A stretch of 64,000 nt of DNA from Arenimonas terrae. GTDB taxonomy: Bacteria > Pseudomonadota > Gammaproteobacteria > Xanthomonadales > Xanthomonadaceae. Positions 11,998-27,259 of this stretch are shown piece by piece (positions within the stretch are counted from its first letter, which is position 1; the number at the start of each line of letters is the position of its first letter). Where the stretch lies: positions 310,001 through 374,000 of the forward strand of contig NZ_SMDR01000001.1 of assembly GCF_006265115.1 (NCBI RefSeq), read 5' to 3'. The position numbers and the translations under genes were made by a program. The notes beneath the pieces were generated by a model that did no database searches, was not told the origin of the DNA, and saw only the letters and a program-made list of their open reading frames with translations.

Positions 11998-13365
11998 TCA
12001 TGCCTGGGACTCCAATGGCTCCAGCCGCTCCCGCACCAGCGCGTCCGCCGCCGACAGGTCCACGTCCTCGATCCGGGCGACGCCGCGCGTGGCCGCCACC
12101 AGGATCGCGCGCTGCACCTTGCCGCGCTCGAAGGCGGTCGCGTAGGGCGTACGCGTGAAGCTGACCATCGAATAGCGCGGCACGAAGCGGCCCGGATGGC
12201 GCTCGGCCAGCACCCGCTCCAGCGCGCGCTGCAGCAGGAAGTCGGCGTCGTCCACGCGGTCGCGCATCTCGACATAGTTCTCCAGCGCCATGGCCTGGAT
12301 GGCCTCGGCATTGGGCCGGCGCAGGGCCTCGAACGCGGCGAAGGCCGCCTCGAAATCCGCCGCCGAGGCGATGCATTCGTCCAGGGCCACGCAGTCCTCG
12401 AAGGCGCAGTTCATGCCCTGGCCGTGGAAGGGCACCATGGCGTGGGCGGCGTCGCCCAGCAGCACCGCGCGGCCGTCCAGATGCCAGCGCTGCAGGCGCA
12501 GCGTGCCCAGGCCGCCGATCGGGTTGTTGGTCCAGTCGGCGTCGAACTCCGGCAGCAGCGGCAGGGCGTCGGCGAAGTCGCGGGCGAAGAAGTCGCGCGC
12601 CGCCGCCAGGTCCGGCAGGGTGGCGAAGCTCGGGTCACCCTGGCTGGGCAGGAACAGGGTGACGGTGAAGGTCTTTTCGGTATTGGGCAGGGCGATGCAC
12701 ATGTAGCCGCCGCGCGGCCAGATGTGCAGGGCGTGGGGTTCGATGCGGAAACCACCGTCCGGCGCCGGCGGGATCTCCAGCTCCTTGTAGCCGTGGCCCA
12801 GCGGCTCGAAACTTTCGCCCAGGGCCAGGTGCGGGCGCAGCGCTTCGCGCAGGCCGGAGCCGGCGCCGTCCGCGCCGAGCAGCACGTCGAACGGGAGCTC
12901 GCGGGCGCTGCGTTCGTGGTCGTCGACGAAGCGCACCCGCCGCGCCGCGAAGTCCACCCCGTCCAGCCGCTGATTGAAATGGATGCGGGCGCCGGCGGCT
13001 TCGGCGGCGTCGAGCATGGCGATGTTCAGGCGGCCGCGGTGCACCGACCAGATCACCTCGCTGTCGTCGCGGCCGTAGCGCTGCAGCATGGTTTCGCCAC
13101 CCAGCGGATGCACCATGCGCCCGCGCATCATCACCGCCTGCGCCATCACCGCGTCCTGCAGTCCGGCCAGGCGCAGCGCATGCAGGCCGCGTTCGGCCAG
13201 GGCCAGGTTGATCGAACGGCCGCCCTCGTAGCCACGCCGGCGCGGATCGGGGCGTTTTTCGAACACGTCCACCTGCCAGCCGCGGCGGGCCAGGAGGATG
13301 GCGAGCAGGGCGCCGGCGAGGCCGGCACCCACGAGGGTGATCTTCTGTTGCGGAGTGGGCTGCAC
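11998..13365 (-). CDS. kmo: Kynurenine 3-monooxygenase
   Basis: FAD-dependent hydroxylase that converts L-kynurenine to 3-hydroxykynurenine using NADPH and oxygen. The 455-residue protein opens with the dinucleotide-binding fold GAGLAGALLAILLARRGW, then YEGGRSINLALAERG, a KMO-specific segment, and has the second FAD motif LLGDAAHAMVPFHGQGMN near residue 300. Length matches bacterial KMO. It is last of the ACMSD-kynU-GGDEF-kmo run, 21 bases after the diguanylate cyclase gene. The matching upstream enzymes for kynurenine formation (tryptophan dioxygenase, formamidase) are not in the window. Confidence 0.95.
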   Translation of the reverse strand: MQPTPQQKITLVGAGLAGALLAILLARRGWQVDVFEKRPDPRRRGYEGGRSINLALAERGLHALRLAGLQDAVMAQAVMMRGRMVHPLGGETMLQRYGRDDSEVIWSVHRGRLNIAMLDAAEAAGARIHFNQRLDGVDFAARRVRFVDDHERSARELPFDVLLGADGAGSGLREALRPHLALGESFEPLGHGYKELEIPPAPDGGFRIEPHALHIWPRGGYMCIALPNTEKTFTVTLFLPSQGDPSFATLPDLAAARDFFARDFADALPLLPEFDADWTNNPIGGLGTLRLQRWHLDGRAVLLGDAAHAMVPFHGQGMNCAFEDCVALDECIASAADFEAAFAAFEALRRPNAEAIQAMALENYVEMRDRVDDADFLLQRALERVLAERHPGRFVPRYSMVSFTRTPYATAFERGKVQRAILVAATRGVARIEDVDLSAADALVRERLEPLESQA

Positions 13366-13386
13366 GGGGTCTTGGGTCCGGAGGGG

Positions 13387-14394
13387 TCAGGCGAGCGGGG
13401 CGTCGGCGACGACGCGGTTGCGGCCGCTGCGTTTGGCTTCGTAGAGGGCGCGGTCGGCGCGGTCGAGCGTCGCGGTGATGCTGCCTTCGCCGCGGCGCCA
13501 ATGCGCCACGCCGATGCTGATGGTGACCGGCACGCCCTGGAAGTCGGCGTCGGCGATGGCGGCGCGCAGCTCTTCCGCCACGGCGCGGCCGTCGTCGAGG
13601 CCGCGGTCGAGCAGCAGCACCGAAAACTCCTCGCCACCGTAGCGGAACAGCGGCGTGCCCGGCGCCAGCGCGCGGCCCAGCTCGGCCGCGACCTGGGTGA
13701 TGATGCGGTCGCCGGCGAGGTGGCCGTGCAGATCGTTGATGGCCTTGAAGTAGTCGATGTCGATCAGCAGGAAGGTGCAGGCCTCGGCGGTGCCGCGCGG
13801 GCCGGCCAGCTGCTCGACGGCCTCGTTGAAGGTGCGGCGGTTCAGGCAGTTGCTGAGCGCGTCGTGGTCGGAGTGGTAGCGCAGCATCACCGCCGCGCGC
13901 TCCTGCAGCAGGGCATAGGTGAACATGAAGCAGACCAGCAGGCCGTAGCCGCTGGCGAAGCGGATCACGTCGATGGCCGGGATCAGGGGCGCGATCATCG
14001 CCGCGGCGTAGACGCCGAAGGCGATCATTGCGACCAGGGCGCGGTCCGAACGCACCAGGAAGACGATCACCGGCGGGAAGATGTAGGCCCAGTGCTGCAT
14101 CGGCCGGCCGTGGTGGAGCCCGAAGGCCATCACCCCGACCAGCAGCAGGGCGATGCTGACGAAGAAGATGGTGCCGCCCAGGTGCCGCGGCAGCGTCAGC
14201 AGTGCCGCGATGCAGGCGCCGGCGATGGCCAGCACGATCCAGGCCAGCTGCGCGGTGTCCGGCAGGTCCAGGCGGGTGTTGACCGTGCCCAGCACGATCA
14301 TCAGCACGAAGATCAGCACCGACAGCACCAGCGCCACCCGCCAGCGCATCAGCTCGCGCAGCAGGGTGAACGAGTCGCGGCGCAGGGTGGGCAT
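13387..14394 (-). CDS. Membrane-bound GGDEF diguanylate cyclase
   Basis: Predicted synthase of cyclic di-GMP from two GTP. About six hydrophobic helices fill residues 17-163, followed by a GGDEF domain from about 175 with an intact active-site GGEEF in RYGGEEFSVLL (near residue 250) and upstream DIDYFKAINDLHGH. The position of the usual inhibitory RxxD site reads APGT, so product inhibition at the I-site is not expected. The gene starts 2 bases after kynU and ends 21 bases before kmo, so it is almost certainly in the same transcript as kynurenine catabolism. No periplasmic sensor domain is large enough to name. Confidence 0.93.
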   Translation of the reverse strand: MPTLRRDSFTLLRELMRWRVALVLSVLIFVLMIVLGTVNTRLDLPDTAQLAWIVLAIAGACIAALLTLPRHLGGTIFFVSIALLLVGVMAFGLHHGRPMQHWAYIFPPVIVFLVRSDRALVAMIAFGVYAAAMIAPLIPAIDVIRFASGYGLLVCFMFTYALLQERAAVMLRYHSDHDALSNCLNRRTFNEAVEQLAGPRGTAEACTFLLIDIDYFKAINDLHGHLAGDRIITQVAAELGRALAPGTPLFRYGGEEFSVLLLDRGLDDGRAVAEELRAAIADADFQGVPVTISIGVAHWRRGEGSITATLDRADRALYEAKRSGRNRVVADAPLA

Positions 14395-14396
14395 GC

Positions 14397-15665
14397 TCAG
14401 CCGCCGTCGCGCCAGCGTTCGACCGCGTCGACGAAGCGGTGCAGGTCGGCGTAGCGGTTGTACAGCGGCACCGGCGAGATGCGGATGACGTCCGGTTCGC
14501 GCCAGTCGCCGACGATGCCGCGGGTTTCCAGGTACTCGAACAGCTCGCGGCCGCGGGCACGTCCGCCGGCGACGCGCAGCGACAGCTGGCAGCCGCGCCG
14601 CGCCGGGTTGGACGGCGTCACCACGTCGAGGACGTCGGCGCAGCGGGCGGCGATCAGCGCCTCGAGGTGGGCGGTGAGTTTCTCCGACTTCGCGCGCAGG
14701 CGGTCCATGCCGGCCTCGGCGAACAGCTCCAGCGACACACGCAGCGGCGCCAGCGCCAGGATCGGCGGATTGCTCAGCTGCCAGCCGTCGGCGCCGGGCG
14801 TGGGCTGGAACTGCGGGCCCATGCGGAAGCGCGTGGCCTGGTCGTGCCCCCACCAGCCGGCGAAGCGCGGCCGCTCGGTGCGGGCGTGGCGTTCGTGCAC
14901 GAAGGCACCGGCGACGGCGCCCGGGCCGGCATTGCAGTATTTGTAATGGCACCAGGCGGCGAAATCGACGCCGCTGTCGTGCAGCGCCAGGCGCAGGTTG
15001 CCGGCGCCGTGCGCCAGGTCGAATCCCACGACGCAGCCCTGCGCATGGCCCAGCCGCACGATCTCCTTCAGGTCGAAGGCCTGGCCGGTGCGGTACTGCA
15101 CACCCGGCCACAGCACCAGGGCGATGCGGTGGCCGTGTTCGGCCAGCACGCGTTCGATCGCCGCCATCGAGATCGTGCCGCCGGGTTCGTCCGCCTCGAG
15201 TTCGATCAGGTCGGTGGCCGGGTCGAAACCGTGGAAACGGATCTGCGATTCGACGCCGTAGCGGTCGGACGGGAAGGCGCCGGCTTCGATCAGGATCGCC
15301 GGGCGCTCGCGCGTGGGCCGGTAGAAGCTGACCATCAGGAAGTGCAGGTTGGCGGTGAGCGAGTTCATCGCCACCACTTCCGAGGCCTGCGCGCCGACCA
15401 GCATGGCCAGGCCCTCGCGCACTTCGTTGTGGTAGGGCATCCAGGGGTGTTTGCCGCGGAAATGCGCCTCGACGCCCAGCGCGGCCCAGTCGTCGAGCTC
15501 CTGCACCAGGGCGGCGCGCACCGCGCGCGGCTGCAGGCCCAGCGAGTTGCCGCAGAAATAGGCCTGGTCCTCGCCGTGGTGCTGCGGGATGTGGAAACGG
15601 TCGCGGAAGTCGTACAGCGGGTCGGCGGCGTCCAGCGCCAGCGCCTGGTCCAGGGTCGGGCTCAT
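14397..15665 (-). CDS. kynU: Kynureninase
   Basis: PLP enzyme that cleaves (3-hydroxy)kynurenine to (3-hydroxy)anthranilate and alanine. The 422-residue protein has YFCGNSLGLQP near the N-terminus, the phosphate-binding MNSLTANLH segment, and HYKYCNAGPG around residue 240 with the lysine that binds PLP. The start ATG at 15665 overlaps the TGA of the ACMSD gene (ATGA). An upstream in-frame start at 15695 would enlarge the overlap and is less likely. The alanine released could feed the alanine dehydrogenase elsewhere in the window. Confidence 0.95.
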   Translation of the reverse strand: MSPTLDQALALDAADPLYDFRDRFHIPQHHGEDQAYFCGNSLGLQPRAVRAALVQELDDWAALGVEAHFRGKHPWMPYHNEVREGLAMLVGAQASEVVAMNSLTANLHFLMVSFYRPTRERPAILIEAGAFPSDRYGVESQIRFHGFDPATDLIELEADEPGGTISMAAIERVLAEHGHRIALVLWPGVQYRTGQAFDLKEIVRLGHAQGCVVGFDLAHGAGNLRLALHDSGVDFAAWCHYKYCNAGPGAVAGAFVHERHARTERPRFAGWWGHDQATRFRMGPQFQPTPGADGWQLSNPPILALAPLRVSLELFAEAGMDRLRAKSEKLTAHLEALIAARCADVLDVVTPSNPARRGCQLSLRVAGGRARGRELFEYLETRGIVGDWREPDVIRISPVPLYNRYADLHRFVDAVERWRDGG

Positions 15666-16669
15666 TCGAACCTCGTGCGCGGCAGGCCCAGCCATTCCAG
15701 CGCGGTGCCGTGGTAAAGGCGGGCCTGTTCGGTTTCGGACAGCCCCATCGCGGCGATGCCGGCGCCCGGCACCTGTTCGCCCAGCGGGAAGGGATAGTCG
15801 GTGCCCAGCATCACCCGCGGCACGCCGACCGTGTCGAGCAGGTAGCGCAGGGCGCGGTTGTCGGCCACCCAGCTGTCGAAATAGAGCTGGTCGAGGTATT
15901 TGCGCGGGCTGTGCGGGTTGTCGGTGGCGACCAGGTCCGGGCGCATGTTGAAGCCGTGTTCGATGCGGCCAATGGTGTACGGGAAACTGCCGCCGCCGTG
16001 CGCCAGGCAGACCTTCAGCCGCGGGAACCGTTCCAGCACGCCGCCGAAGATCAGCGCGCAGGCCGCGCGGCTCTGTTCGGCCGGCATGCCCACCAGCCAG
16101 GGCATCCAGTACTTGGGCATGGACTCGCTGCCCATCATGTCCCAGGGGTGCACCAGGATGGCCGCGCCCAGGTCCTGCGCCGCCTCGAAGAAGGGCTGCA
16201 GTTCGGGCGCGTCCAGGTTCCAGTCGTTGATGTGCGAACCGATCTGCACGCCCTGCAGGCCCAGCTGGTCCATGCAGCGTTCGAGCTCGCGCATCGCCAG
16301 CTGCGGCGACTGCATCGGCACCGTGCCGATGCCGGCGTAATGGCGGCGGTGCTCGCGGCAGGCCTCGGCCATGTGGTCGTTCAGCGCCTCGTGCAGGGCC
16401 AGCGCCTCGTGCGCCTTGGCCCAGTAGCTGAACATGACCGGCACCGTGCTGATCACCTGCACCTGCACGCCGAACCTGGCGTAGTCGGCGATGCGTTCGG
16501 CCGGGTCCCAGGTCTTGGACCAGATCTCGCGGAAGAACTTGCCGTCCTTGTAGATGCGGGCGCGGCCGTCCTCGTGGTGGATCACCGGGAAGCGCGGGTC
16601 GCCGTACTTCTCGGCCAGGTTCGGCCAGGTCCTGGGCAGGTAATGGGCGTGGGTGTCGATCTTGAGCAT
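15662..16669 (-). CDS. nbaD: 2-amino-3-carboxymuconate-6-semialdehyde decarboxylase (ACMSD)
   Basis: Zinc amidohydrolase-fold decarboxylase that converts ACMS (the HaaO product) to 2-aminomuconate semialdehyde, releasing CO2. The 335-residue protein has the metal pair His7/His9 in DTHAHY, a VHPWDMMG histidine near residue 172 and the GTDYPFPLG aspartate near 292. An alternative ATG three codons upstream (16678) is equally possible. It is the first gene of the visible ACMSD-kynU-GGDEF-kmo run, but its substrate-producing enzyme HaaO lies about 6.7 kb away on the other side of the RHS module. Confidence 0.93.
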   Translation of the reverse strand: MLKIDTHAHYLPRTWPNLAEKYGDPRFPVIHHEDGRARIYKDGKFFREIWSKTWDPAERIADYARFGVQVQVISTVPVMFSYWAKAHEALALHEALNDHMAEACREHRRHYAGIGTVPMQSPQLAMRELERCMDQLGLQGVQIGSHINDWNLDAPELQPFFEAAQDLGAAILVHPWDMMGSESMPKYWMPWLVGMPAEQSRAACALIFGGVLERFPRLKVCLAHGGGSFPYTIGRIEHGFNMRPDLVATDNPHSPRKYLDQLYFDSWVADNRALRYLLDTVGVPRVMLGTDYPFPLGEQVPGAGIAAMGLSETEQARLYHGTALEWLGLPRTRFE

Positions 16670-16754
16670 GGGCGCCATTCTAGGCGGGATTGGCGCGGCT
16701 CGGCGCGGTCGGGTCCTATACTCGGCGCCACCCGCCCGCCCCGTGGAGCGACCC

Positions 16755-17303
16755 ATGCGCCTTGCCTCGTCCAGCCTCCTGAGCCTGCTGCTGTGGGCAT
16801 TGTCCGGCGCCGCGCTGGCGCAGGTGCCGACCCCGGCCGCACAGGCCTTCGAGCGCCTCAAGACCCTGCAGGGCGACTGGCAGGGGGCGTTCCCCGACGG
16901 CCGGCGGCACACCGTCAACTACCGGCTGTCGGCGGCGGGCACGGTGCTGGTCGAAACCTGGCAGCTCGGCCCGGGCCGGGAGTCGATGACCCTCTATCAC
17001 CTCGACGGCGACCGCCTGCTGGCGACGCACTACTGCCCGCAGGGCAACCAGCCGCGGTTGCAGTGGGTGCCGGGACCGGACCCGGATGTGCAGCGCTTCG
17101 ATTTCGTCGACGGCACCGGACTGGACCTGCCGGACCGCTCGCACCAGCACGCGTTCGTCACCCGGATAGGCGAGGGCACGTATTCGCGCAGTGAGACGTA
17201 TGTGGGCAATCAGGCCACAGCGGATGAGCGCGCCGAAGCGGCCGCCGCGGCCGGAGCTGAAGCCGCCATCGTCTATACGCGTATCGAGTCATCCGGCGGC
17301 TGA
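16755..17303 (+). CDS. Secreted lipocalin-like (DUF1579/heme-binding-like) protein of unknown function
   Basis: The 182-residue protein has a signal peptide (LLSLLLWALSGAALAQ) and a beta-rich body starting FERLKTLQGDWQGAF and containing VETWQLGPGRESMTLYHLDG, which resembles lipocalin-like or nitrobindin-like barrels. The start ATG at 16755 follows GGAG at a sensible distance, and a TATACT element lies 38 bases upstream. The C-terminal region is alanine-rich. Its last bases overlap the remnant of crcB. No ligand or enzymatic role can be named. Confidence 0.72.
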   Translation: MRLASSSLLSLLLWALSGAALAQVPTPAAQAFERLKTLQGDWQGAFPDGRRHTVNYRLSAAGTVLVETWQLGPGRESMTLYHLDGDRLLATHYCPQGNQPRLQWVPGPDPDVQRFDFVDGTGLDLPDRSHQHAFVTRIGEGTYSRSETYVGNQATADERAEAAAAAGAEAAIVYTRIESSGG

Positions 17304-17669
17304 TCGGCCTCGGGCCTGCCGGCGGTCTTGCCGGTGCGGTTGCCGGGGGCGTCATCGGCGGCTGGCTGTTGCGCCAGCTCAGCAATGGCATGCCTTGGGC
17401 ACGCCGGCGCGCTGGGCAGCTTCGCCGCGGGTTTCCTGCTGGTGTGGCTGGAAGGCCGCGGCCCCAGCGCGTTGACCCTGCGCGCCTTCCTGATCGTCGG
17501 CGTGCTCGGCGGCCTCACCACCTATTCGGCCCTGATGCTGGAGTGCCTGGTGATGGCGCGCGGGGCGAAGGCCGATGTGCTGGCGGGGTATCTCGGGCTG
17601 ACGCTGGTAGGTGGGTTCGCGATGGTTTGGGTGGGGGCGCGTTTGGCAGACGTCGCCAAGACGGTTTGA
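17291..17669 (+). pseudogene. crcB: Frameshifted remnant of fluoride exporter crcB
   Basis: Two frames together spell a CrcB-like protein. From about 17291 one frame reads LIGLGPAGGLAGAVAGG to SNGMPW; from 17415 the next frame reads GSFAAGFLLVWLEGRG, then VGVLGGLTTYSALMLE, the CrcB signature, to the stop at 17667-17669. The join around 17391-17414 lacks the conserved GTLxVN segment and is about 8 bases too short, so the shift looks like a small deletion rather than one miscalled base. No good start codon exists in the first frame, and the 5' end overlaps the lipocalin-like gene. It is probably inactive. Confidence 0.8.
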
Positions 17670-17698
17670 GGCCCCGGCGAGGTAGAACGAAAACGTGT

Positions 17699-18127
17699 TT
17701 AAGGAGTCCAGAGCGATTCAGCGGTTAAACGATGGTTGATTGCCGTCGTTTTCTTTTGCGTCCAGATGAACATCACACCTGCTGTTATGCCGAGAGCAGC
17801 GTAGAGAGCAAGCGCCATGGTGACAGCCATTCCGCCAATCCAGTAGCCGATTACAAACCCTGACCCGGCTCCATAAAGCGCGGCTGACAGGATGGAGTCC
17901 ATTCGAAACGCACGGGCAAGCATGAACCCAGGCACCCCGAGGGCAGCTACTGCGAAGAAACATCCCGGAAAGAGAGCGATCGTGTAGAGCACCACGTGCC
18001 CCAGCTTCCATGGTCCCCAGGTAGCCAACGAAAGAAGCAACGAAACCGACGATGCGGAGGCCGCTGAGGCAACTAGCGTGCTGAACACCAGCAGGCCGCA
18101 ATTAGAGACCTTACTCACTGCAACCAC
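17699..18127 (-). CDS. Four-helix membrane protein, candidate immunity partner of the RHS protein
   Basis: The 142-residue protein has about four hydrophobic helices (roughly residues 9-31, 43-65, 79-100 and 104-125) and a short polar tail. I do not recognise a family. The start is a GTG at 18127, or a second GTG at 18118; either way it overlaps the end of the RHS gene, so translation is coupled. The region is visibly richer in A and T than its surroundings. A small gene directly behind the variable tip of an RHS protein is the usual place for an immunity gene, which is the basis for the proposal; no direct evidence exists. Confidence 0.65.
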   Translation of the reverse strand: MVAVSKVSNCGLLVFSTLVASAASASSVSLLLSLATWGPWKLGHVVLYTIALFPGCFFAVAALGVPGFMLARAFRMDSILSAALYGAGSGFVIGYWIGGMAVTMALALYAALGITAGVMFIWTQKKTTAINHRLTAESLWTP

Positions 18128-21100
18128 ATCCGCTGGCGCTGGAGATGATGTCGGACATTTGTGAGCCCCATATCAACTCGTTGGCAAGGTAGTTTGGAAG
18201 CGGTCCAAACGTAAGCGCTGGACTTTGAAGCGGGTTAAGTCCCTCGCCATACGTGTGCGCGACCCCGTTCCGAACAGTCCGCGCGGCGTATCCAGGTTCA
18301 AAAAACCCGTCGCTTCCCGCCATGTTTACGACGAGCGGATCGCCTGTAATCAGATCTTCTGTCAGATAGCTCGTCACTGGATTGCTCATTAGAGGGACAA
18401 CGGCCGCATTGTTCGCCGTTCCTCCCGTGGTTGCCGGGCGGGGCCCGCCAGCATCTGGTGTGGGGCGGTTGATCAGCCCGTTCATCACCGAGGCTGGGTC
18501 TTTACATCCAATATTCCGGGTGACGTCATAACGATGATAGAGAAGAGCGTTTCGGACGCCATTCGAGTTGATGTGCTCGGGAAACCCCTTCGGAGTCGGG
18601 ACCATGAACATAGGCCCGCCCGGATAGTGGCATAAGGTGTCCCCTCGGTGAGAGACGCAGTACTGACCTCTGGGGTCGAAGTTTACAGCCGGATTTCCTC
18701 CGGCATAGCCATAGGTCGAGGCTCCCCCCGCCAACCCAATTGGATCCGACTGCACATACCGCCCGGTGCCCGGATCGTAATCCCGGAAGTAGTTGTAGTG
18801 CAGCCCGGTCTCTTCGTCGAAGTACTGCCCGGGGTAGCGCAGGTTGAACGTGTAGGCGACGGTGTCGCCGTCCGGGTCTTCGTTCGCGGCATGGTCGCCG
18901 AACGCGCTGCCCGTCAGGTCCCAGCGCCAGACGACGGCGTTGGTGCCGGGATGTACGATGGCCCGCGGCGTGCCCAGGTGGTCGGTCAGCACGTACTGGT
19001 GGCTGCTGCCGGCATGGCTGCCCAGCACCGCCACCAGGGTGTCGTCGAGCCAGACGTATTCCTGGATCCGGGCGCCGGCGTCGTCGTATTCGCCCAGCAG
19101 GCGGCCGGCTTCGTCGTAAACGAAAGTGACATCGCCGCCGGTGACGGTGGGGTTGCGTTTGACCACCCGCTCGCCGCGGGCGTTGTAGCCGTATTCCCGG
19201 GTCAGCACGCCGCCGTCGGTGAGCTGGCTCATCCGGCCGCGGTCGTCGTAGGTGAAGACGCGGCTGGCGCCGACCGTCGTGGTGTTGCCGGCGGCGTCGT
19301 AGCCGCGGGCCGTGGCGCCGGTCTGGGTCAGGCGGTGGCTGGTGGTGGGGTAGGTGTAGGCCTCGGTCGTCCCGGCGGTTTTGCTCTGGCGGTTGCCGGT
19401 GGCGTCGTAGGTGAAGGCCTGGATCGGGGTGGCGCCATTCTTCAGCGCTTCGAGCCGGTCGAGGGCGTCGTAGTCGATGCTGCGCGTGGCGGTGCCGCCC
19501 CCGGCCAGCCGCTCGTCCAGCCCGGTGACATTGCCGACGGCGTCGAGGGTGTAGTCCAGGGCCAGGCCATCCACGGCGCTGTCGGCGATGGCCGCGATGC
19601 CGTAGTTGCCGTCGTAGGTCCTGTCCAGCGTGCGGCCGTTGCCGAAGGTCACCCCCGTCGCGGGCCCGAAGGGCAGGTAGTCCACGTCCGAGACCACGGT
19701 GACGGCCGCGCTGCCCGCCGTCGGCTGGGCCATCACGCCGGTGATGCGGCCGGCGGCATCGCGCTGGTAGGTGACGACGGCGCCGCTGGGGTAAGTCATC
19801 GCCACCAACCTGTTGGCGGCGTTGTGGGTGTAGCCGACGGTGGCGTCGGGCGTGCCCGTCACCGACTGCAGCTTGCGCACCACGTTGCCGCGGCGGTCGT
19901 AGCAGTAGGCCGTGCTGCCGCTGGGGTCGGTGAAGCCGGACAGGCGGCCGCTGGCGAAGGTCTCGCCGGGGACGCAGACGGTGGGTGCGGTGTCGTAGCT
20001 GAAGCCGATGTCCTGGCCGGGCGTGGGCAGGTCGAGGGCGGTCAGGCGGTTCAGGGCGTCGTAGCCGTAGATCGTCGTAATACCGCGGGCATCGGTCTGG
20101 CTGGCGCGGTTGCCGGCGGCGTCGTAGGTGTAGGTGGTGGTGCCGGTGTCCGGGCTGGCCAGCGTCACCAGGTCGCCCAGGCCGTTGTAGCCGTAGCTGG
20201 TGGTCAGGCCCTTGGGGTCGATCACGGCGGTGAGGTTGTCGCGGGCGTCGTACTGGAACTGGGTCTCGGCGCGCTCGGGACCGGTACCGCCGACATTGGC
20301 GATGCTGCGCTTGAGGCGGCCCAGCGGGTCGTAGTCGTGGTCGGTGGTGCGGCCGAAGGCGTCGGTGACCGTGTCCACTTGGCCCACCGCGTCGTAGGTG
20401 AAGTCGGTGGGCGTGGACAGCGCGTCGGCCAGGGTCTCGAGCTGGCCGAGCTGGTCGTAGACGCGGCTGAGGCTGTGCCTGAGCACGTTGCCGGCGTCGC
20501 GGGTCTCTTCGCTGATGCGGTGGCCGGCGCCGTCGAGCGTGTAGCTGACGGTATTGCCGAAGTTGTCTTCGATGCCGGTCAGGCGATGGGCCTGGTCGTA
20601 GCTGAACTCGACGAAGGCGCCGTCGGGCTGGGTGACCTTGGTGACCTGGCCGACGTTGTCGTAGTCCAGCCGGGTGATGGCGTCGTCGGCCTCGGTGCCG
20701 TTGTCGGCGCCGCGGACCTTGCGGGCGGTGAGCCAGCCGCGGACGTTGTATTCCAGATCCGTCACGATGCCGTTGGCATCGACGACCTGGAGCGGCCGGC
20801 CGGCCAGGTCGTAGCGGCTGTAGGTCGTCACCGCGCCCGTGGCGTCGGTGACCCGGTACAGGTCGCCCTTGCGGTGGCAGGCGCCGCCGGTGCTGCAGCC
20901 TGTCAGGTCGTCCGCGCTGCGGTACTCGAAGCTGGCGGTGTCGGCCACATCGGTGCGGGGCCCATCCATCGATTTCAGCAGGCCGAGGATGGGGCAGGTG
21001 CTGTTGGGGGCGGCCACGTCGGTGGCGTCGCAGTAGGCATACAGGGTCTGTCGAACGCCGCTGGGCGCGGACGCCAAGCTTCCGCAGACGTAGCTGGCAT

Positions 21101-23087
21101 TTGCCGAGTCGGGATCAATGGCGCAGGAGGCGCGGATCTGTCCGGCAGCTTCGTAGGCCGCAGTTAGCAGGGATTCGGTGTCGAAAACTCCGGCGACCTT
21201 ACTCTGGACCTCAGTAGATATGATCCGGTGCCTGGCGTCACGCGCCATGAGCCTGCGACGCTCGCTCTCTAGGTTGACCGATTCCGTCACGGAGTTCGTG
21301 TAGGTGTCTGCGTATCCGAACGTGGTCGTTGTTCCATCCGCCTCCGTTAGCGACAACAATCTCGCCGTGCTGTCGTACGTCTTCTCCACTTCACCATCGC
21401 CATCGGTTCGTGAAAGCGTGCGTCGTGTACGGTGCGAAGAGAACGTGTAATCGACCGATTCCCCGGTCGCGCGGGTGACCGTCGCCGCGAAGCCGCCGGT
21501 ATAGGCGACGGTCGTCATATCGTGCGTCGGAGATCCAGGATTCCCGGTGTTGAGTCGACTTAGAATCGCCCGGCCACGGTTGTCGTACCCGAATGTCGCC
21601 ATTCGGTTTCCGCGTTCATCGGTGATGCCTGTCAGGTGGTGTTTGAATCCCGCCGGCGCCAGGCCGGTTTCGCCATAGTGATAAACGCGCACGCTTCCAT
21701 CGGGGCGCTCGACCGATGTCAGGTTGCCGTTGGCGTCGTAGCCATACAGCGTCTCTTCGCCCATGTCCGTACGCGTCGCGAGCAAGCGGCTTCCGGGGTC
21801 GTAAAGCAAGGTCAGCGCCCGGCCCTTCGCGTCGGTGATCGTGGTCAGGCGTCCCATGCCGTCGTAGGCCAGAGTCACCGCATTGGCCAGGTCGTCGGGA
21901 TGATAGACGCGCGTCAGATTCCCGTCGTAGTCGAACTCCTTGGTTGACCCGTCGGGTTCGATCAGGCGATAACCGCCCCCGAAGTCCCGAAGAACCTTGT
22001 CCGGATTTGTCTCGGATCGGAAGATTCCGGTCGCAACGCTCCGGAAGAAGTCGTAGTAGCCTCGGTCGCTGTACAGAGTCTTCGGGTTGCGCTCGGCATA
22101 AAGCTTGTCGGTGTAGGAGTGTTGCCATCCGGGGGCGAGCGTGCGCATCGGATCGGACGTCCCCGAGATGTCAATGGTCCGGGTCGGATCTTCCTGTTGA
22201 AGCGAGTGGTAGCTACGACCGAATTCCCTTCCAGCGAAAACGAAGTCCGTCTCGAACCGGGCTTTGTCCCCTGTGCCTGGATACACGGGGTTGCAGTTGC
22301 CGGGCTCGCAGGCCACCTGAAGAACGGTCGAGTCGATATAGGGCTTGGCAGCGGTGGACCGGCACATCTGGTGCGGCGCCACCTCGTTGTTCCCGTCGCT
22401 GTAAGCCGGGGCCTTGCCGGAGCGGGCAACCATGCCGGAAGGGCAGGTCATGCTGGCTTCCATCGACATCCAGTCTTCGTGATGATTCGGTTCGTCGTCA
22501 TCACCGCAGGTCATGTCGAACTCCATCAGTCGCTTGTGTTCAGTGCTGGGAAACGTGTATTGGATCCGCGCCGACTGAGGATGGCCGGAGTACTGGCTCA
22601 CGGTGTGATATGGGCTGGCGTACGACCCCGTTGCGTAGTAGGGGGTGATAGTGCAGGTGGGATATGCCTGCTGGTAGTGCGCAAACTTTCCAGCCATCAT
22701 TTCTGCTTCGTTGGCGCACCGGGTGGGGTCCGCCGAGCTGGGGGCGCATATTCCTTGCGCGGGCCCCCAGCCGCCAATCGTGTATGACGGCTCCGAGATG
22801 ACCTGGGGCGGCTGATACGGGACAGAGTAGGTCGTCCTCAGGACGGTTGAGGCACCGTAGTTGATCACCCGGGTGGACTCTGGCTGAAGAAGTGAGCCAT
22901 GCGGATGGCTGGCGCGCATGGCAGATACTGCTTCATCGCGACTGTCGTAAACGCCGCCATTGAAGGAATAAGACCAGATGTCCTGCGCCGCTACGGTCGG
23001 ATTCAAGAGAAGCCAGGCCGCGAGAATCTGGAAGGCGATGACGACGCTATGGGCGCCAAAACGGAAGCGTTTCGAGAGGAGGTTCAT
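18111..23087 (-). CDS. Secreted RHS/YD-repeat protein with a variable C-terminal tip
   Basis: The 1658-residue protein starts at the ATG at 23087, preceded by AGGAA, and has a signal peptide ending near residue 34 (WLLLNPTVAAQ), pointing to Sec export. Residues about 270-350 resemble the DUF6531 N-terminal RHS region (GREFGRSYHS). Dozens of YD repeats (for example YDALNRL, YDPLGRL) fill about 390-1350. The RHS core follows near 1366-1450 with GRYVQSDPIGLAGG. A roughly 180-residue tip begins after NFDPRGQ (near 1473) and ends GCGCSE. I do not recognise the tip. Both ends of the gene are lower in GC than the repeat region, which suggests transfer and tip exchange. Confidence 0.92.
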   Translation of the reverse strand: MNLLSKRFRFGAHSVVIAFQILAAWLLLNPTVAAQDIWSYSFNGGVYDSRDEAVSAMRASHPHGSLLQPESTRVINYGASTVLRTTYSVPYQPPQVISEPSYTIGGWGPAQGICAPSSADPTRCANEAEMMAGKFAHYQQAYPTCTITPYYATGSYASPYHTVSQYSGHPQSARIQYTFPSTEHKRLMEFDMTCGDDDEPNHHEDWMSMEASMTCPSGMVARSGKAPAYSDGNNEVAPHQMCRSTAAKPYIDSTVLQVACEPGNCNPVYPGTGDKARFETDFVFAGREFGRSYHSLQQEDPTRTIDISGTSDPMRTLAPGWQHSYTDKLYAERNPKTLYSDRGYYDFFRSVATGIFRSETNPDKVLRDFGGGYRLIEPDGSTKEFDYDGNLTRVYHPDDLANAVTLAYDGMGRLTTITDAKGRALTLLYDPGSRLLATRTDMGEETLYGYDANGNLTSVERPDGSVRVYHYGETGLAPAGFKHHLTGITDERGNRMATFGYDNRGRAILSRLNTGNPGSPTHDMTTVAYTGGFAATVTRATGESVDYTFSSHRTRRTLSRTDGDGEVEKTYDSTARLLSLTEADGTTTTFGYADTYTNSVTESVNLESERRRLMARDARHRIISTEVQSKVAGVFDTESLLTAAYEAAGQIRASCAIDPDSANASYVCGSLASAPSGVRQTLYAYCDATDVAAPNSTCPILGLLKSMDGPRTDVADTASFEYRSADDLTGCSTGGACHRKGDLYRVTDATGAVTTYSRYDLAGRPLQVVDANGIVTDLEYNVRGWLTARKVRGADNGTEADDAITRLDYDNVGQVTKVTQPDGAFVEFSYDQAHRLTGIEDNFGNTVSYTLDGAGHRISEETRDAGNVLRHSLSRVYDQLGQLETLADALSTPTDFTYDAVGQVDTVTDAFGRTTDHDYDPLGRLKRSIANVGGTGPERAETQFQYDARDNLTAVIDPKGLTTSYGYNGLGDLVTLASPDTGTTTYTYDAAGNRASQTDARGITTIYGYDALNRLTALDLPTPGQDIGFSYDTAPTVCVPGETFASGRLSGFTDPSGSTAYCYDRRGNVVRKLQSVTGTPDATVGYTHNAANRLVAMTYPSGAVVTYQRDAAGRITGVMAQPTAGSAAVTVVSDVDYLPFGPATGVTFGNGRTLDRTYDGNYGIAAIADSAVDGLALDYTLDAVGNVTGLDERLAGGGTATRSIDYDALDRLEALKNGATPIQAFTYDATGNRQSKTAGTTEAYTYPTTSHRLTQTGATARGYDAAGNTTTVGASRVFTYDDRGRMSQLTDGGVLTREYGYNARGERVVKRNPTVTGGDVTFVYDEAGRLLGEYDDAGARIQEYVWLDDTLVAVLGSHAGSSHQYVLTDHLGTPRAIVHPGTNAVVWRWDLTGSAFGDHAANEDPDGDTVAYTFNLRYPGQYFDEETGLHYNYFRDYDPGTGRYVQSDPIGLAGGASTYGYAGGNPAVNFDPRGQYCVSHRGDTLCHYPGGPMFMVPTPKGFPEHINSNGVRNALLYHRYDVTRNIGCKDPASVMNGLINRPTPDAGGPRPATTGGTANNAAVVPLMSNPVTSYLTEDLITGDPLVVNMAGSDGFFEPGYAARTVRNGVAHTYGEGLNPLQSPALTFGPLPNYLANELIWGSQMSDIISSASGCGCSE

Positions 23088-23298
23088 CGGATTCCTGGTT
23101 CCGGGGCTCAATACAAGCAAGTATGTCGGGCGACGGATAAAACTGGGGCATAGCGTTCCGCAATCGCGCGAGCTCAGCTGCGCGACTTCCGGGTAACGGA
23201 CGTGTCCCCAGATACCGGACAGCGGATCAGGCCCCTGGCTCGCGGTTTTGTGACCGTGTTCTCAGATGTTCAGTCCGCCTTCTTTGCTGGGGCGGAAC

Positions 23299-23334
23299 GC
23301 CGACGAAGTGGAGGGCGACTGCGGCTTCGTCAGC
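23299..23334 (-). terminator. Possible hairpin at the end of haaO
   Basis: GCCGACGAAG (23299-23308) pairs with CTTCGTCAGC (23325-23334) with one mismatch. It spans the haaO stop codon on the minus strand and has no strong T run, so it may be a weak terminator or an mRNA end structure. Confidence 0.35.
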
Positions 23335-23851
23335 CCTGGAACTTCGCCGGCGCCGGGTTCAGGTGGCCGCAGGCGGTGCAGGTGCGGAGTTCGGCGGAGC
23401 GGTAGAAGCGCTCGAAGACCGCCGGGAACTGGGTCTCGATGTCCTCGAGGGCGAAGAACTCCGAGTACAGCGGGTGGTTGCACTTCTCGCAGTACCACAG
23501 CAGCCCGTCCTTCTCGTGCGGCAGGCGCTTGCGTTCGATCACCAGGCCGATGCCGCCGGCCAGACGCTGCGGCGAGTGCGGCACGCGCGGTGGCAGGTAG
23601 AAGACCTCGCCGGCCCTGATCGGGATGTCGCGCACGGCGCCGTCCTCCTGGATCTTCAGCACCATCTCGCCCTCGAGCTGGTAGAAGAATTCCGGGCCTT
23701 CGTCGTGGTGGTAGTCGGTGCGGGCGTTCGGGCCGCCGACGATCATCACGATGAAATCGCCGTCGACGATGCACTTGTTGGCCACCGGCGGCTTGAGCAG
23801 GTGCCGGTGCTCGTCGATCCACTGCTGCAGGTTGAAGGCGGGGGTGAGCAT
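23330..23851 (-). CDS. haaO: 3-hydroxyanthranilate 3,4-dioxygenase
   Basis: Fe(II) cupin dioxygenase that opens 3-hydroxyanthranilate to 2-amino-3-carboxymuconate semialdehyde. In the 173-residue protein the iron ligands are His48, Glu54 and His92, with substrate-binding Arg44 and Arg96. The C-terminus has two Cys-x-x-Cys pairs (YCEKC and CTAC), the rubredoxin-like second metal site of the bacterial type. It starts 1 base after the stop of the deaminase gene. It supplies the substrate of ACMSD, which is now separated from it by the RHS module. Confidence 0.95.
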
Positions 23852-23852
23852 G

Positions 23853-24284
23853 TCAGCGTGACTCCGGGAAGGCCGCCACGCATTTGAGCTCGATCGCGAT
23901 CGGCGTGGGCAGGGCGGTGATGCCCAGCGTGGTGCGGCAGGGCGCCTTGTTGACGTCGGGGAAATATTCGGCCCAGACGCCGTTGTAGGCGTGGAAATCG
24001 CTCTGCATGTCGGTCAGGTAGACGGTGACGTCCACCAGCCAGTCCCAGCGGCAGTGGCTGGCCTCGAGCACGGCGCGCACGTTGGCGAACACCGAATGGC
24101 ACTGGGTCACGATGTCGTAGTCCACAAGCCGGCCGGCGGCGTTGTAGACGTTGCCGGGAATCTCGTTGGTGCCGGGCGTGCGCGGCCCGATGCCGGAGAG
24201 GAACAGCAGGTTGCCGACCCGGCGCGCGTGCGGATAGCGCCCGACGGGAAGCGGCGCACCGCTGGCGTGGATGATCTCGCTCAC
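23853..24284 (-). CDS. nbaF: RidA-family protein, probable 2-aminomuconate deaminase
   Basis: The 143-residue protein belongs to the RidA/YjgF fold ([20 protein letters not shown], then [20 protein letters not shown]). In 2-nitrobenzoate and tryptophan catabolic clusters the homologue deaminates 2-aminomuconate to 4-oxalocrotonate. That role is inferred here from its position between haaO and the semialdehyde dehydrogenase. The start is a GTG at 24284 overlapping the TGA of the carbonic anhydrase gene (GTGA). A general enamine/imine deaminase role is the alternative. Confidence 0.88.
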
Positions 24285-24943
24285 CGGTCGTCCTTGAGTT
24301 TGCCGCGGATGTGGTCCATCGCCATGCCGTAGGCGACCGGCAGCTCGTCGTTGGAATCCACGCCCATGCCCAGCTCGCGGACGCGGCCGTCGAGCAGGGA
24401 ATAGACCCATGCGTGCACGCTCAGTTTCTGGCCGCGGGCCCAGGCGTCCTGGACGATGGTCGTCTGGCAGACGTTGACGACCTGCTCGACCACGTTCAGC
24501 TCGCACAGGCGCGCATGCCGCAGCGATTCGAGCTCGACTTCCGCCAGCAGGGCTGCGTGCTTGTGGCCGACGTCGGCGACGTGGCGCAGCCAGTTGTCGG
24601 CCAGGCCGACGCGGGTGCCGGTCAGGGCCGCATGCACGCCGCCGCAGCCGTAGTGGCCGACCACCAGGATGTGTTCGACCTTGAGCACGTCCACCGCGAA
24701 CTGGATCGTGCTCAGGCAATTGAGGTCGGTGTGCACGACCACGTTGGCGACGTTGCGGTGCACGAACACTTCGCCCGGCTGCAGGCCGGTGATCTGGTTG
24801 GCCGGCACGCGCGAGTCCGAACAGCCGATCCACAGGTACTTCGGCGCCTGCAGCTGCGAGAGGCGCTTGAAGAACTGCGGGTCCTCGGCGCGCACCCTGG
24901 CGGCCCATTCGCGGTTCCTGTCGAGCAGTTCCTTCAGTGGCAT
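24281..24943 (-). CDS. can: Beta-class carbonic anhydrase
   Basis: Zinc enzyme that interconverts CO2 and bicarbonate. The 220-residue protein has the beta-class motifs CSDSRVPANQI (first zinc cysteine with the Asp-Arg dyad) and VGHYGCGGV (His and Cys zinc ligands). It matches the Can type in length. The start is 4 bases after the ALDH stop and its end overlaps the deaminase start, so it is embedded in the kynurenine degradation operon. A role in handling the CO2 released by ACMSD is a reasonable inference. Confidence 0.95.
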   Translation of the reverse strand: MPLKELLDRNREWAARVRAEDPQFFKRLSQLQAPKYLWIGCSDSRVPANQITGLQPGEVFVHRNVANVVVHTDLNCLSTIQFAVDVLKVEHILVVGHYGCGGVHAALTGTRVGLADNWLRHVADVGHKHAALLAEVELESLRHARLCELNVVEQVVNVCQTTIVQDAWARGQKLSVHAWVYSLLDGRVRELGMGVDSNDELPVAYGMAMDHIRGKLKDDR

Positions 24944-24947
24944 CGGA

Positions 24948-26393
24948 TCATCCCAGGTCGATGGTGACGTTCTTGGCTTCGGTGAAGAAGCGCAGGGCTT
25001 CCCAGCCGCCTTCGCGGCCCAGTCCCGACTGCTTCACGCCGCCGAAGGGCGTGCGCAGGTCGCGGTTCATCCAGGTGTTGACCCAGACCACGCCGGCTTC
25101 GATGCGGTCGGCGAGGCGGTGCGCGCGGCCCAGGTCCGAGGTCCAGAGGCTGGCGGCCAGGCCGTAGGGCACGGCATTGGCCAGGGCCAGCGCTTCGTCC
25201 TCGGTGTCGAAGGCCTGCAGCGTGACGACGGGGCCGAAGATCTCTTCGGTATTGGTGCGGCAATCCGGGCCCAGCCCCTCGATCACGGTCGGGGCGATGA
25301 ACCAGCCGTCGGCGCAGCGGCCGGCGGGTTGCACCGCGTCGCCGCCGCAGAGCACCCGGCCGCCTTCGGCCTTCGCCAGCGCGATGCAGGCCATCACCTT
25401 GTCGAAGTGCGGTTTCGAGACGACGGGGCCGGTGGTGGTGGCGGGGTCCTGCGGATCGCCGACCACCAGCGCCTTGGCTCGCGCCACCAGCGCGTCGCGG
25501 AACTCGCCGTAATAACCGCGCTCGACCAGGAGGCGCGAGCCGCACAGGCAGATCTGCCCGGAGTTGAGGAAGGCCGAGCGCACGACGGTGTCGAGCAGCT
25601 TCGCCTTCGGCGCGTCGGCGAACACCAGGGTCGGGTTCTTGCCGCCCAGTTCGAGCGAGGTTTTCTTCAGCGAACGCGCGCAGCTCTCCGCGATGCGCGT
25701 GCCCACCGCCGTGCTGCCGGTGAAGCTGATCGCCTTGACCTGGGGGTGGTCCACCAGCGCCTGGCCGACGGCGGCGCCGCGGCCCTGCACGATGTTGAAC
25801 ACGCCGGGCGGAAAACCGATCTCGCGCGCGACTTCGCCCAGCATCCACGCCGTCACCGGCGTCACTTCCGAGGGTTTGCCGACCACGCAGTTGCCCGCGG
25901 CCAGGGCCGGCGCGAACTTCCAGGTGAACAGGTACAGCGGCAGGTTCCAGGGGCTGATCACGCCGACCACGCCCAGCGGCTGGCGCAGGGTGTAGTTGAC
26001 GATGCCCGGCGCCGAATGCGATTCGCTGGCGAACTGGGTGGCGGCGGCGGCGAAGAAGCGCAGGTTGCTGACCGCGCGCGGGATGTCGAGGTTGCGCGCC
26101 AGCGCCAGCGGCTTGCCCACGTCCCGCGATTCGGCGGCGGCGAACTCATCCAGGCGCGCCTCCAGCGCATCGGCCAGGCGTTCGATCCAGGCGGCGCGGT
26201 CGCTGGCGGGCAGGGCCGACCAGGCCGGGAAGGCCTGCCGCGCGGCTGCGACGGCGGCCGCCACGTCGTCGGCGTCGCCGTCCGGGCACTGCGCGTAAGC
26301 CTGGCCGGTGGCCGGTTCGAAGACATCGAGCCAGGCGCCGCGTGTAGCGGTCACCGCTTGGCCGCCGATCAGATGGGATAGCCGCAGGCTCAT
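24948..26393 (-). CDS. nbaE: Probable 2-aminomuconic semialdehyde dehydrogenase (ALDH family)
   Basis: NAD-dependent aldehyde dehydrogenase, 481 residues. Visible ALDH motifs are SPWNLPLYLFTWK (cofactor region), SFTGSTAVG, ELGGKNP with the general base Glu, and GQICLCGSR with catalytic Cys282. Its best-fitting substrate is 2-aminomuconate semialdehyde, the ACMSD product, judged from the neighbouring deaminase and haaO genes and resemblance to hydroxymuconic semialdehyde dehydrogenases. The ATG at 26393 is chosen because it gives the usual ALDH N-terminus; upstream open frame is the nei gene in another phase. It leads the ALDH-can-deaminase-haaO run. Confidence 0.9.
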   Translation of the reverse strand: MSLRLSHLIGGQAVTATRGAWLDVFEPATGQAYAQCPDGDADDVAAAVAAARQAFPAWSALPASDRAAWIERLADALEARLDEFAAAESRDVGKPLALARNLDIPRAVSNLRFFAAAATQFASESHSAPGIVNYTLRQPLGVVGVISPWNLPLYLFTWKFAPALAAGNCVVGKPSEVTPVTAWMLGEVAREIGFPPGVFNIVQGRGAAVGQALVDHPQVKAISFTGSTAVGTRIAESCARSLKKTSLELGGKNPTLVFADAPKAKLLDTVVRSAFLNSGQICLCGSRLLVERGYYGEFRDALVARAKALVVGDPQDPATTTGPVVSKPHFDKVMACIALAKAEGGRVLCGGDAVQPAGRCADGWFIAPTVIEGLGPDCRTNTEEIFGPVVTLQAFDTEDEALALANAVPYGLAASLWTSDLGRAHRLADRIEAGVVWVNTWMNRDLRTPFGGVKQSGLGREGGWEALRFFTEAKNVTIDLG

Positions 26394-26446
26394 GCCGCCA
26401 AGCTTAACCGCCGTCGCGCCCGTACGGACAGGTTCGGCCTGGCCAT

Positions 26447-27259
26447 TCAGCGCTGGCAGAGCGGGCACCAGTAGAGCCGCCGGCCACCGAGTTCGTGCCG
26501 CACAACCAGGTCGCCGCAGCGCGGGCAGGGCTGGCCTTCGCGGTCGAAGACCTGGAAGCGGAAACCGGCCGGCGTGTCGGTGAGGTAGTCGCTGCGCATG
26601 CCCGCCGCCGGTTCGATGCCGCGGGTTCGGTAGCTGGCGCGCGGCACGTCGAGCAGGGCCTTGGCCAGGCGCTGGCGTTCGACCGCCGACAGGTCGGCCG
26701 GGCGCCGCTGCGGCGCGATACCGGCGGTGAACAGCACCTCCGAGCGCAGGTAGTTGCCCATGCCGGCCAGGAAGGCCTGGTCCAGCAGCAGGGCGACCAG
26801 CGAGCGGCCGGCGAAACGCGGCTCCTGCAGCCGCTTGGCCACGGCCGCGGGTTTGAGCGCCGGGTCGAGCACGTCGGGGCCGAGCTTCGAGAGGAAGGGA
26901 TGACGTTCGAGCTCGGCGGTTTTCCACATCTGCACCTCGGACGCGGAATACAGCAGGATCGCGCTGGCCTCGGTCTCGAGCGCCACGCGCAGCGAGCGGC
27001 CGCTGTCGGGCCGCGGCCCGGCCGGCGCGATGGTCCAGACGCCGTAGAGCTGGTTGTGCGAATACAGCGTCAGCCCGTGCTCGAAATGGGTCAGCAGGGC
27101 CTTGCCGTGCGGCGCGATCGCGGTGATGCGGCGCCCGACCAGGTCGCGCTGGTAGCGCTTGAGTTCGGGGAAGTGGAACCAGGCGGCGGTGAGCGGCCGG
27201 CCGACCACGGCGGCCGCCAGCTGGTCGGCGGTGCGGCGGATTTCAGGACCTTCGGGCAT
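26447..27259 (-). CDS. nei: Endonuclease VIII (DNA glycosylase/AP lyase)
   Basis: Base-excision repair enzyme for oxidised pyrimidines. The 270-residue protein begins MPEGPEIRR, with Pro2 and Glu3 as the catalytic N-terminus of the Fpg/Nei family. It has GMGNYLRSEVLF (H2TH region) and a C-terminal zinc finger with CPRCG and WCPLCQ. The IRR after MPEGPE points to Nei rather than MutM. It is 53 bases upstream of the ALDH gene on the same strand. Confidence 0.93.
   Translation of the reverse strand: MPEGPEIRRTADQLAAAVVGRPLTAAWFHFPELKRYQRDLVGRRITAIAPHGKALLTHFEHGLTLYSHNQLYGVWTIAPAGPRPDSGRSLRVALETEASAILLYSASEVQMWKTAELERHPFLSKLGPDVLDPALKPAAVAKRLQEPRFAGRSLVALLLDQAFLAGMGNYLRSEVLFTAGIAPQRRPADLSAVERQRLAKALLDVPRASYRTRGIEPAAGMRSDYLTDTPAGFRFQVFDREGQPCPRCGDLVVRHELGGRRLYWCPLCQR

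Follow-up and report, generated by a model that had tools for sequence, protein, structure and literature searches.

Gene clusters of the nba/kyn type, which serve the meta-cleavage of 3-hydroxyanthranilate and kynurenine, bring together HaaO, aminocarboxymuconate-semialdehyde decarboxylase (ACMSD), a semialdehyde dehydrogenase, a deaminase, KynU and Kmo. The same enzyme set is encoded in the stretch of DNA analysed here, 64,000 nucleotides of Arenimonas terrae (contig NZ_SMDR01000001.1, positions 310,001 to 374,000), referred to below as the window. The operon in the window is unlike those clusters in that it contains a carbonic anhydrase gene and is split into two halves between haaO and the ACMSD gene, and in 17 of 27 Arenimonas genomes a gene of the bicarbonate transporter family (sbtA, PF05982) adjoins ACMSD. 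Leaderless promoters, whose -10 hexamer precedes the start codon by 6-7 nt and so leaves no room for a ribosome-binding site, provide a second point of comparison: motifs before ACMSD and before the aldehyde dehydrogenase gene (ALDH) at the operon head share this geometry, here in the Lysobacteraceae and as predictions only, and among the papers listed in a literature search none is, to judge by its title, a map of transcription starts. The RHS gene between the two halves is like Rhs elements in its YD repeats, its RHS-associated core and the small open reading frame (ORF) directly downstream, and unlike those known in that neither its tip region nor the small ORF has a family match in Pfam or NCBIfam.

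Transfer hotspots are the closest known kind of site. According to Oliveira et al. 2017 (PMC5635113), half of the hotspots carry no evidence of mobile elements, and recombination in the flanking core genes is proposed. The haaO-ACMSD site is like the hotspots described there in being an interval between conserved genes whose cargo differs by lineage, and like many of them in having no integrase or transposase, as judged from a scan of 39 among the 141 cargo ORFs that were called outside the window. It is unlike them in lying inside a co-directional catabolic operon, in having been compared across genera rather than within species, and in being tied to a promoter-like motif at the next gene. 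The kind of site is known, and what is unusual is its position inside an operon; among the titles and abstract openings listed in a literature search, in which subscription journals are thinly covered, none describes insertions between haaO and ACMSD.

An operon in two halves

The explanation preferred here, to which a probability of roughly 0.8 is assigned, is that an ancestral single operon, ALDH-CA-ridA-haaO-ACMSD-kynU-kmo (CA, carbonic anhydrase), would have been read from a leaderless-type promoter at ALDH, that its haaO-ACMSD junction would repeatedly acquire genes in the family, and that in the window's lineage the junction would now hold the RHS gene, the small ORF, a crcB remnant and an unclassified gene. 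Because the two genes nearest ACMSD run against the operon, read-through from ALDH would be unlikely in the window, and the ACMSD half would most likely be transcribed from its own leaderless-type promoter, TAGAAT-N7-ATG, predicted from sequence. Cargo turnover would proceed through recombination in the conserved flanking genes. The operon consists of the following genes:

24948..26393, minus strand: ALDH, putative 2-aminomuconate semialdehyde dehydrogenase, first gene of the upstream half (Aldedh, 566.5 bits; ATG at 26391-26393)
24281..24943, minus strand: carbonic anhydrase (carbonate dehydratase; NF007756, 282.8 bits, cut-off 251)
23853..24305, minus strand: RidA-family protein, putative 2-aminomuconate deaminase (TIGR00004, 87.2 bits, under the cut-off of 106)
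23330..23851, minus strand: haaO, 3-hydroxyanthranilate 3,4-dioxygenase, last gene of the upstream half (NF009763, 259.7 bits, cut-off 220)
15662..16669, minus strand: putative ACMSD, first gene of the downstream half (PF04909, Amidohydro_2, 143.4 bits)
14397..15695, minus strand: kynU, kynureninase (TIGR01814, 481.9 bits, cut-off 246.4)
13387..14445 (putative start codon), minus strand: GGDEF protein, between kynU and kmo (PF00990, 118.3 bits)
11998..13365, minus strand: kmo, putative kynurenine 3-monooxygenase (matches of FAD-monooxygenase type; its place after kynU is conserved)

The preliminary description of the window had placed these genes and their strands correctly, including the ALDH start at 26393. 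Of the products expected from a kynurenine/3-hydroxyanthranilate catabolic operon, those of haaO and kynU score above the curated cut-offs of their models, while ACMSD, ALDH, the deaminase and kmo belong to the expected Pfam superfamilies and stand in the expected order, with none over its cut-off among the NCBIfam matches listed; the best such match of ALDH is to 2-hydroxymuconic semialdehyde dehydrogenase (TIGR03216, 541.8 bits, cut-off 693), and the best 25 of the 67 family matches of Kmo are all under cut-off, so that the name Kmo rests on gene context. Within the halves the genes are separated by 7 bp (ALDH-CA), -22 bp (CA-ridA), 4 bp (ridA-haaO) and -31 bp (ACMSD-kynU). From the haaO stop codon to the ACMSD ATG the distance is 6,660 bp, in agreement with the earlier estimate of about 6.7 kb between two halves on one strand.

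The preliminary description had proposed that a single ancestral operon was interrupted and that comparison of gene order among relatives would reveal this. The comparison bears the proposal out: relatives without an RHS gene at this place, the sister species included, have an uninterrupted haaO-ACMSD junction. The sister of the window on the operon-protein tree is genome G149, whose 300 nt at the junction are identical to an A. daejeonensis record (L230); in A. daejeonensis haaO ends 1 bp before the ACMSD ATG, and the flanking DNA is 85-96% identical to that of the window over 3 kb on each side. The final residues of the window's HaaO, at the breakpoint, are unlike those of A. daejeonensis in this flank comparison. 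The G149 genome, which is rated 86% complete and in whose fetched stretch several genes are in two pieces, has no match to the unclassified gene of the window and none to the RHS gene at E<=1e-30.

Across the family, 139 of 149 genomes have haaO and 102 have ACMSD, and the two lie on one contig and one strand in the same order in 93 of the 102. The gap between them is below 150 bp in 43 of these 93 genomes (20 genera), 150-600 bp in 7, 600-2000 bp in 16, 2-5 kb in 18, 5-10 kb in 4, 10-20 kb in 4 and 47 kb in one, and the order SDR-ALDH-CA-ridA-haaO-ACMSD-kynU-kmo-exoI repeats across the context loci. Among 59 genomes of the order that lie outside the family and have both genes, 20, from six families, are contiguous. 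From this comparison of gene order it is concluded that contiguity of haaO and ACMSD is the ancestral state. ACMSD is present in all 27 Arenimonas genomes, whose junctions comprise 7 that are contiguous, 15 with sbtA alone, 2 with a sortilin-like gene and sbtA, one with another insert of 1.5 kb, that of the window, and one on a contig that starts inside ACMSD.

The insert in the window contains four genes:

18111..23120, minus strand: RHS protein of 1669 aa (RHS_repeat, 230.9 bits in 13 stretches; Rhs_assc_core, 71.6 bits, cut-off 32.5)
17699..18127, minus strand: small ORF of 142 aa overlapping the end of the RHS gene, possible partner (immunity) gene
17328..17669, plus strand: crcB remnant whose 5' part is either absent or in another frame
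16755..17303, plus strand: unclassified gene, divergent from ACMSD, with a second copy, 59% identical, on contig C3

The RHS gene is the sole match to itself in its own genome at E<=1e-30, and the possible role of the small ORF as its immunity partner is suggested by position alone. The crcB gene had been called broken, and the matches do begin only at positions 33 (PF02537) and 48 (PRK14218, under cut-off) of the models. The label "lipocalin-like" for the unclassified gene found no backing, for this gene has no match in Pfam or NCBIfam. The guanine-plus-cytosine fraction is 0.645 for the RHS gene and 0.559 for the small ORF, compared with 0.667 for haaO and 0.680 for ACMSD; the crcB remnant and the gene beside it, which are antisense to the operon just before ACMSD, are at 0.70. 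A TATACT hexamer on the plus strand (16717-16722), 32 bp before the ATG of the divergent gene, shares the 85-bp spacer with the ACMSD -10.

Gene acquisition at the haaO-ACMSD junction

On the evidence of comparative gene order, the haaO-ACMSD junction is a recurrent insertion site in the family, a general hotspot rather than the scene of an event specific to RHS. Its flanks are conserved (93 of 102), its cargo turnover is high, and its changes exceed those of its neighbours. On a FastTree phylogeny of nine concatenated proteins from 119 genomes, the junction exceeds 600 bp in 57 of 112 genomes (a count that excludes six unlinked genomes and G075) with at least 29 changes, whereas the corresponding figures for the five other internal junctions are 3/115 (3 changes) for ALDH-CA, 1/115 (1) for CA-ridA, 9/117 (8) for ridA-haaO, 1/117 (1) for ACMSD-kynU and 7/114 (4) for kynU-kmo; junctions broken by more than about 6 kb drop from these denominators, which retain 114-117 of the 119 genomes. 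Outside the operon there are 1 change at FMNbd-SDR, 2 at kmo-exoI and none at orf29-FMNbd or exoI-DUF2461, and 12 at the SDR-ALDH boundary before the operon head with the same 600-bp cut-off. Scored simply as contiguous or interrupted, the junction undergoes at least 28 changes over 107 genomes (59 interrupted), with 5 genomes classed as short and 7 as unlinked left out. Of the nine unlinked genomes of the family, six were fetched on both sides and G033 on the haaO side only, and G014 and G007 were left out; G075, with the gap of 47 kb, was treated as unlinked in the cargo, tree and junction counts.

The cargo comprises about 20 types; 23 cargo states occur in the 59 interrupted genomes and change 38 times on the tree, the contiguous state included. 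In the 49 genomes, the window's among them, whose gap measures between 150 bp and 20 kb, family searches covering 39 of the 141 ORFs found Sbt_1 transporters, FUSC proteins, amidohydrolases, nucleotidyltransferase/HEPN-like pairs, cytochrome bd, PIN, HepT-like and AbiJ-like proteins, a hybrid kinase, a molybdopterin enzyme, YadA-like and subtilase proteins, a radical-SAM protein and type IV secretion genes. Five of the types are shared between genera: FUSC by five of them, sbtA and the amidohydrolase each by four, the nucleotidyltransferase pair by three and cytochrome bd by two. RHS was rejected as a regular occupant of the site: 7 of the 26 other Arenimonas genomes have an RHS match at E<=1e-30, none of them at haaO-ACMSD, and relatives of the window's RHS gene, small ORF, crcB remnant and divergent gene are listed neither in the 25 Arenimonas loci nor, by tblastn at 1e-6, in 48 gap stretches of other genomes.

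The excess of at least 29 changes over the 1-8 at the five internal neighbours makes this operon a natural test of what causes certain operon joints to break, and the same junction may inform the order in which promoter and insert arrive and the way in which a split half becomes independent. A practical consequence is that it would be unsafe to assign FUSC, cytochrome bd, the nucleotidyltransferase/HEPN-like pairs and the other cargo to the kynurenine pathway on the strength of neighbourhood. The possible exception is sbtA, because the operon carries a carbonic anhydrase; a functional link of sbtA to the operon is possible on this ground and because the ACMSD reaction releases carbon dioxide. 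An example is the sbtA gene at L025:1130-2089 (G147), which, like those of 16 other Arenimonas genomes, is located in a kynurenine operon that also holds carbonic anhydrase.

Promoter-like motifs at the two halves

Motifs were counted as TANNNT ending 5-8 nt before an in-frame start codon. Three elements of the window are involved:

16677..16682, minus strand: TAGAAT, separated by 7 nt from the ACMSD ATG, a candidate for the leaderless promoter that would serve the downstream half
26401..26406, minus strand: TAAGCT, separated by 7 nt from the ALDH ATG, the -10 of leaderless type at the head of the operon
26420..26432, minus strand: CCTGTCCGTACGG, candidate operator containing a palindrome, upstream of the ALDH -10

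The ACMSD spacing in the window, TAGAAT-N7-ATG, lies within the counted range. The motif occurs at ALDH in 98 of 115 genomes, in 80 of these as TAAGCT, and at ACMSD in 42 of 112, where mononucleotide shuffles predict about 1.0. It is found at 0/117 starts of the carbonic anhydrase gene, 0/118 of ridA, 0/120 of haaO, 1/117 of kynU and 0/114 of kmo, or 1 of 586 for these five internal genes together, and at 2/102 of SDR. The earlier expectation that the distal half would need a promoter of its own fits the leaderless-type -10 predicted at ACMSD.

The two promoters differ in what lies upstream. The core TCCGTACGG, at no more than one mismatch, is present in 15 of the 98 ALDH promoters, 13 times at one fixed position, compared with 3 of 980 shuffles, and in none of the 42 ACMSD promoters, from which the ALDH palindrome is absent. 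The ACMSD promoter has no palindrome of the ALDH type, and the two halves are therefore probably under separate regulation, with CCTGTCCGTACGG a candidate operator for some regulator. In Arenimonas and in genera g10, g12 and g28 the spacing between the CCTGTCCGTACGG palindrome motif and the ALDH -10 that follows it is constant.

In eight genomes of seven genera (G072, G002, G108, G037, G070, G141, G012 and G160) the stop codon of the cargo gene, TAA or TAG, apparently forms the first three bases of the ACMSD -10; these are 8 of the 14 packed genomes in which the cargo stop lies 8-11 nt before the ATG. A few of the eight motifs may be due to chance, because the stop codon supplies their first bases.

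Rival readings and the history of the junction

Several results weigh against an operon that was recurrently interrupted and given a second promoter. The tree was built from the operon's own proteins, and recombination of the operon could inflate the change count; the five cargo types shared by two to five genera may reflect spread of an insert between lineages as a partial cause of the recurrence. Beyond the family, 30 of the 59 genomes are unlinked (other contig or strand, or more than 10 kb apart, some perhaps through assembly breaks) and nine more are split by less than 10 kb, which speaks for halves that were ancestrally separate and were joined several times, with RHS placed in an old gap. 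This history is very improbable, given that the same order with short gaps recurs in 20 of the family's genera and in six further families, that several identical fusions are harder to credit than several insertions, and that the sister species is contiguous. The other adverse results concern the promoter. At ACMSD the best -35 matches average 2.31 against 2.07 in shuffles, with four or more matches in 2% against 4%, and a sigma-70 scan of the window yields no site where shuffles average 1.2; a -35 is dispensable in some GC-rich bacteria. The distribution of the ACMSD motif by length of the gap speaks for the promoter, with 1/31 genomes below 20 bp, 6/17 at 20-150 bp, 4/7 at 150-600 bp, 28/51 at 600 bp or more and 3/6 unlinked genomes; the contrast is partly geometric, since a gap below 20 bp gives scant room for the motif; this count lacks seven long-gap genomes, of which six were read separately (motif in 4 of 6) and G075 was left out. 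Without large cargo, at junctions of 20-600 bp, the motif is present in 10 of 24. Against the promoter, the motif is missing from 23 of the 51 interrupted genomes, four of which (G003, G055, G099 and G129) have divergent cargo that would require it. In 23 independent pairs motif and interruption differ on average in the same direction in 8.9, in opposite directions in 1.6 and not at all in 12.4, a modest result (median p 0.039, range 0.006-0.34). The lack of a clear -35 and the interrupted genomes without the motif would be accommodated if the TAGAAT motif were a chance or translational feature and ACMSD were reached by read-through from upstream, and the motif is indeed more often absent after tightly packed co-directional cargo (16/24) than after loose or divergent cargo (9/26; p 0.046), which fits read-through there, with the stop codon of packed cargo able to supply the motif's first bases. 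This reading is nevertheless improbable, in view of the motif's enrichment at ACMSD relative to the other internal genes, its frequency at the operon head and, in the window, the two antisense genes that precede ACMSD.

It might also be that the split was itself selected. HaaO and ACMSD stand at the branch between the synthesis of nicotinamide adenine dinucleotide (NAD) and catabolism, and separate control of ACMSD could be needed there; the interrupted junction coincides with the branch point, and most family genomes show, among the matches listed, only nadB matches under cut-off (about 340-355 bits, taken for SdhA), so that HaaO may feed NAD there. The genome of the window itself, however, has NadB (454.9 bits, over the cut-off), and nadB matches reach at least 400 bits, by a hand count among the matches listed, in 12 of the 43 contiguous genomes, with gaps below 150 bp, and in 9 of the 43 interrupted ones, with gaps above 600 bp; selection at the branch point was thus tested with nadB, which shows no association with interruption, and is considered unlikely. 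A rival of a different kind concerns only the last step, and is given slightly better than even odds: the RHS module would have replaced sbtA at a junction already split and already provided with an ACMSD promoter, and A. daejeonensis would separately have lost both. The junction is occupied by sbtA in all five members of the window's seven-row clade beyond the window-daejeonensis pair and in all but one of the six members of the neighbouring clade; the CTAGAATGGCGCC-C-ATG of the window is nearly the same as the CTAGAATGGCGCC-ATG of the sbtA-bearing genomes G150 and G156; G158, in which sbtA and the promoter are both absent among close relatives bearing sbtA and whose flanks are 93-99% identical to those of G150, is a likely precedent for regained contiguity; and A. 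caeni (G128) and G153, with the sortilin-like gene plus sbtA, indicate that layered insertion occurs. Against replacement stand the absence of any sbtA match in the window's gap or in its genome (E<=1e-10), the contiguous sister species, and the chance that the 13-nt GC-rich match is convergent. Because sbtA fills the junctions of the other clade members apart from A. daejeonensis and the -10 region of the window resembles that of G150 and G156, replacement is no less likely than entry of the module into an unbroken operon, and the Arenimonas junction was probably already occupied by sbtA before RHS arrived.

An extension of the preferred explanation, an operon interrupted repeatedly at haaO-ACMSD, is put forward tentatively. 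The junction may be a family-wide docking site, where a leaderless promoter makes the junction neutral and cargo is then gained, swapped or lost by recombination in the flanks; in the eight genomes named above, the stop codon of a cargo gene would itself supply the first bases of the promoter.

In the family, haaO is more widespread than ACMSD and nadB is mostly under cut-off among the matches listed, and for this reason NAD synthesis from kynurenine is suggested for part of the family.

The preliminary description had foreseen neither the general hotspot nor the probable earlier occupancy by sbtA, nor that the distal half has a second intruder, the GGDEF gene that separates kynU from kmo: kynU-kmo distances above 600 bp occur only in Arenimonas, and six of these seven genomes have the GGDEF gene there. 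A second and weaker site of interruption, ridA-haaO, is seen in 8 genera. At the SDR-ALDH boundary of the window lies an Fpg/Nei-like glycosylase gene (26447-27259), which is found at the same place in 10 of 25 other Arenimonas loci and in only 1 of 7 context loci from other genera.

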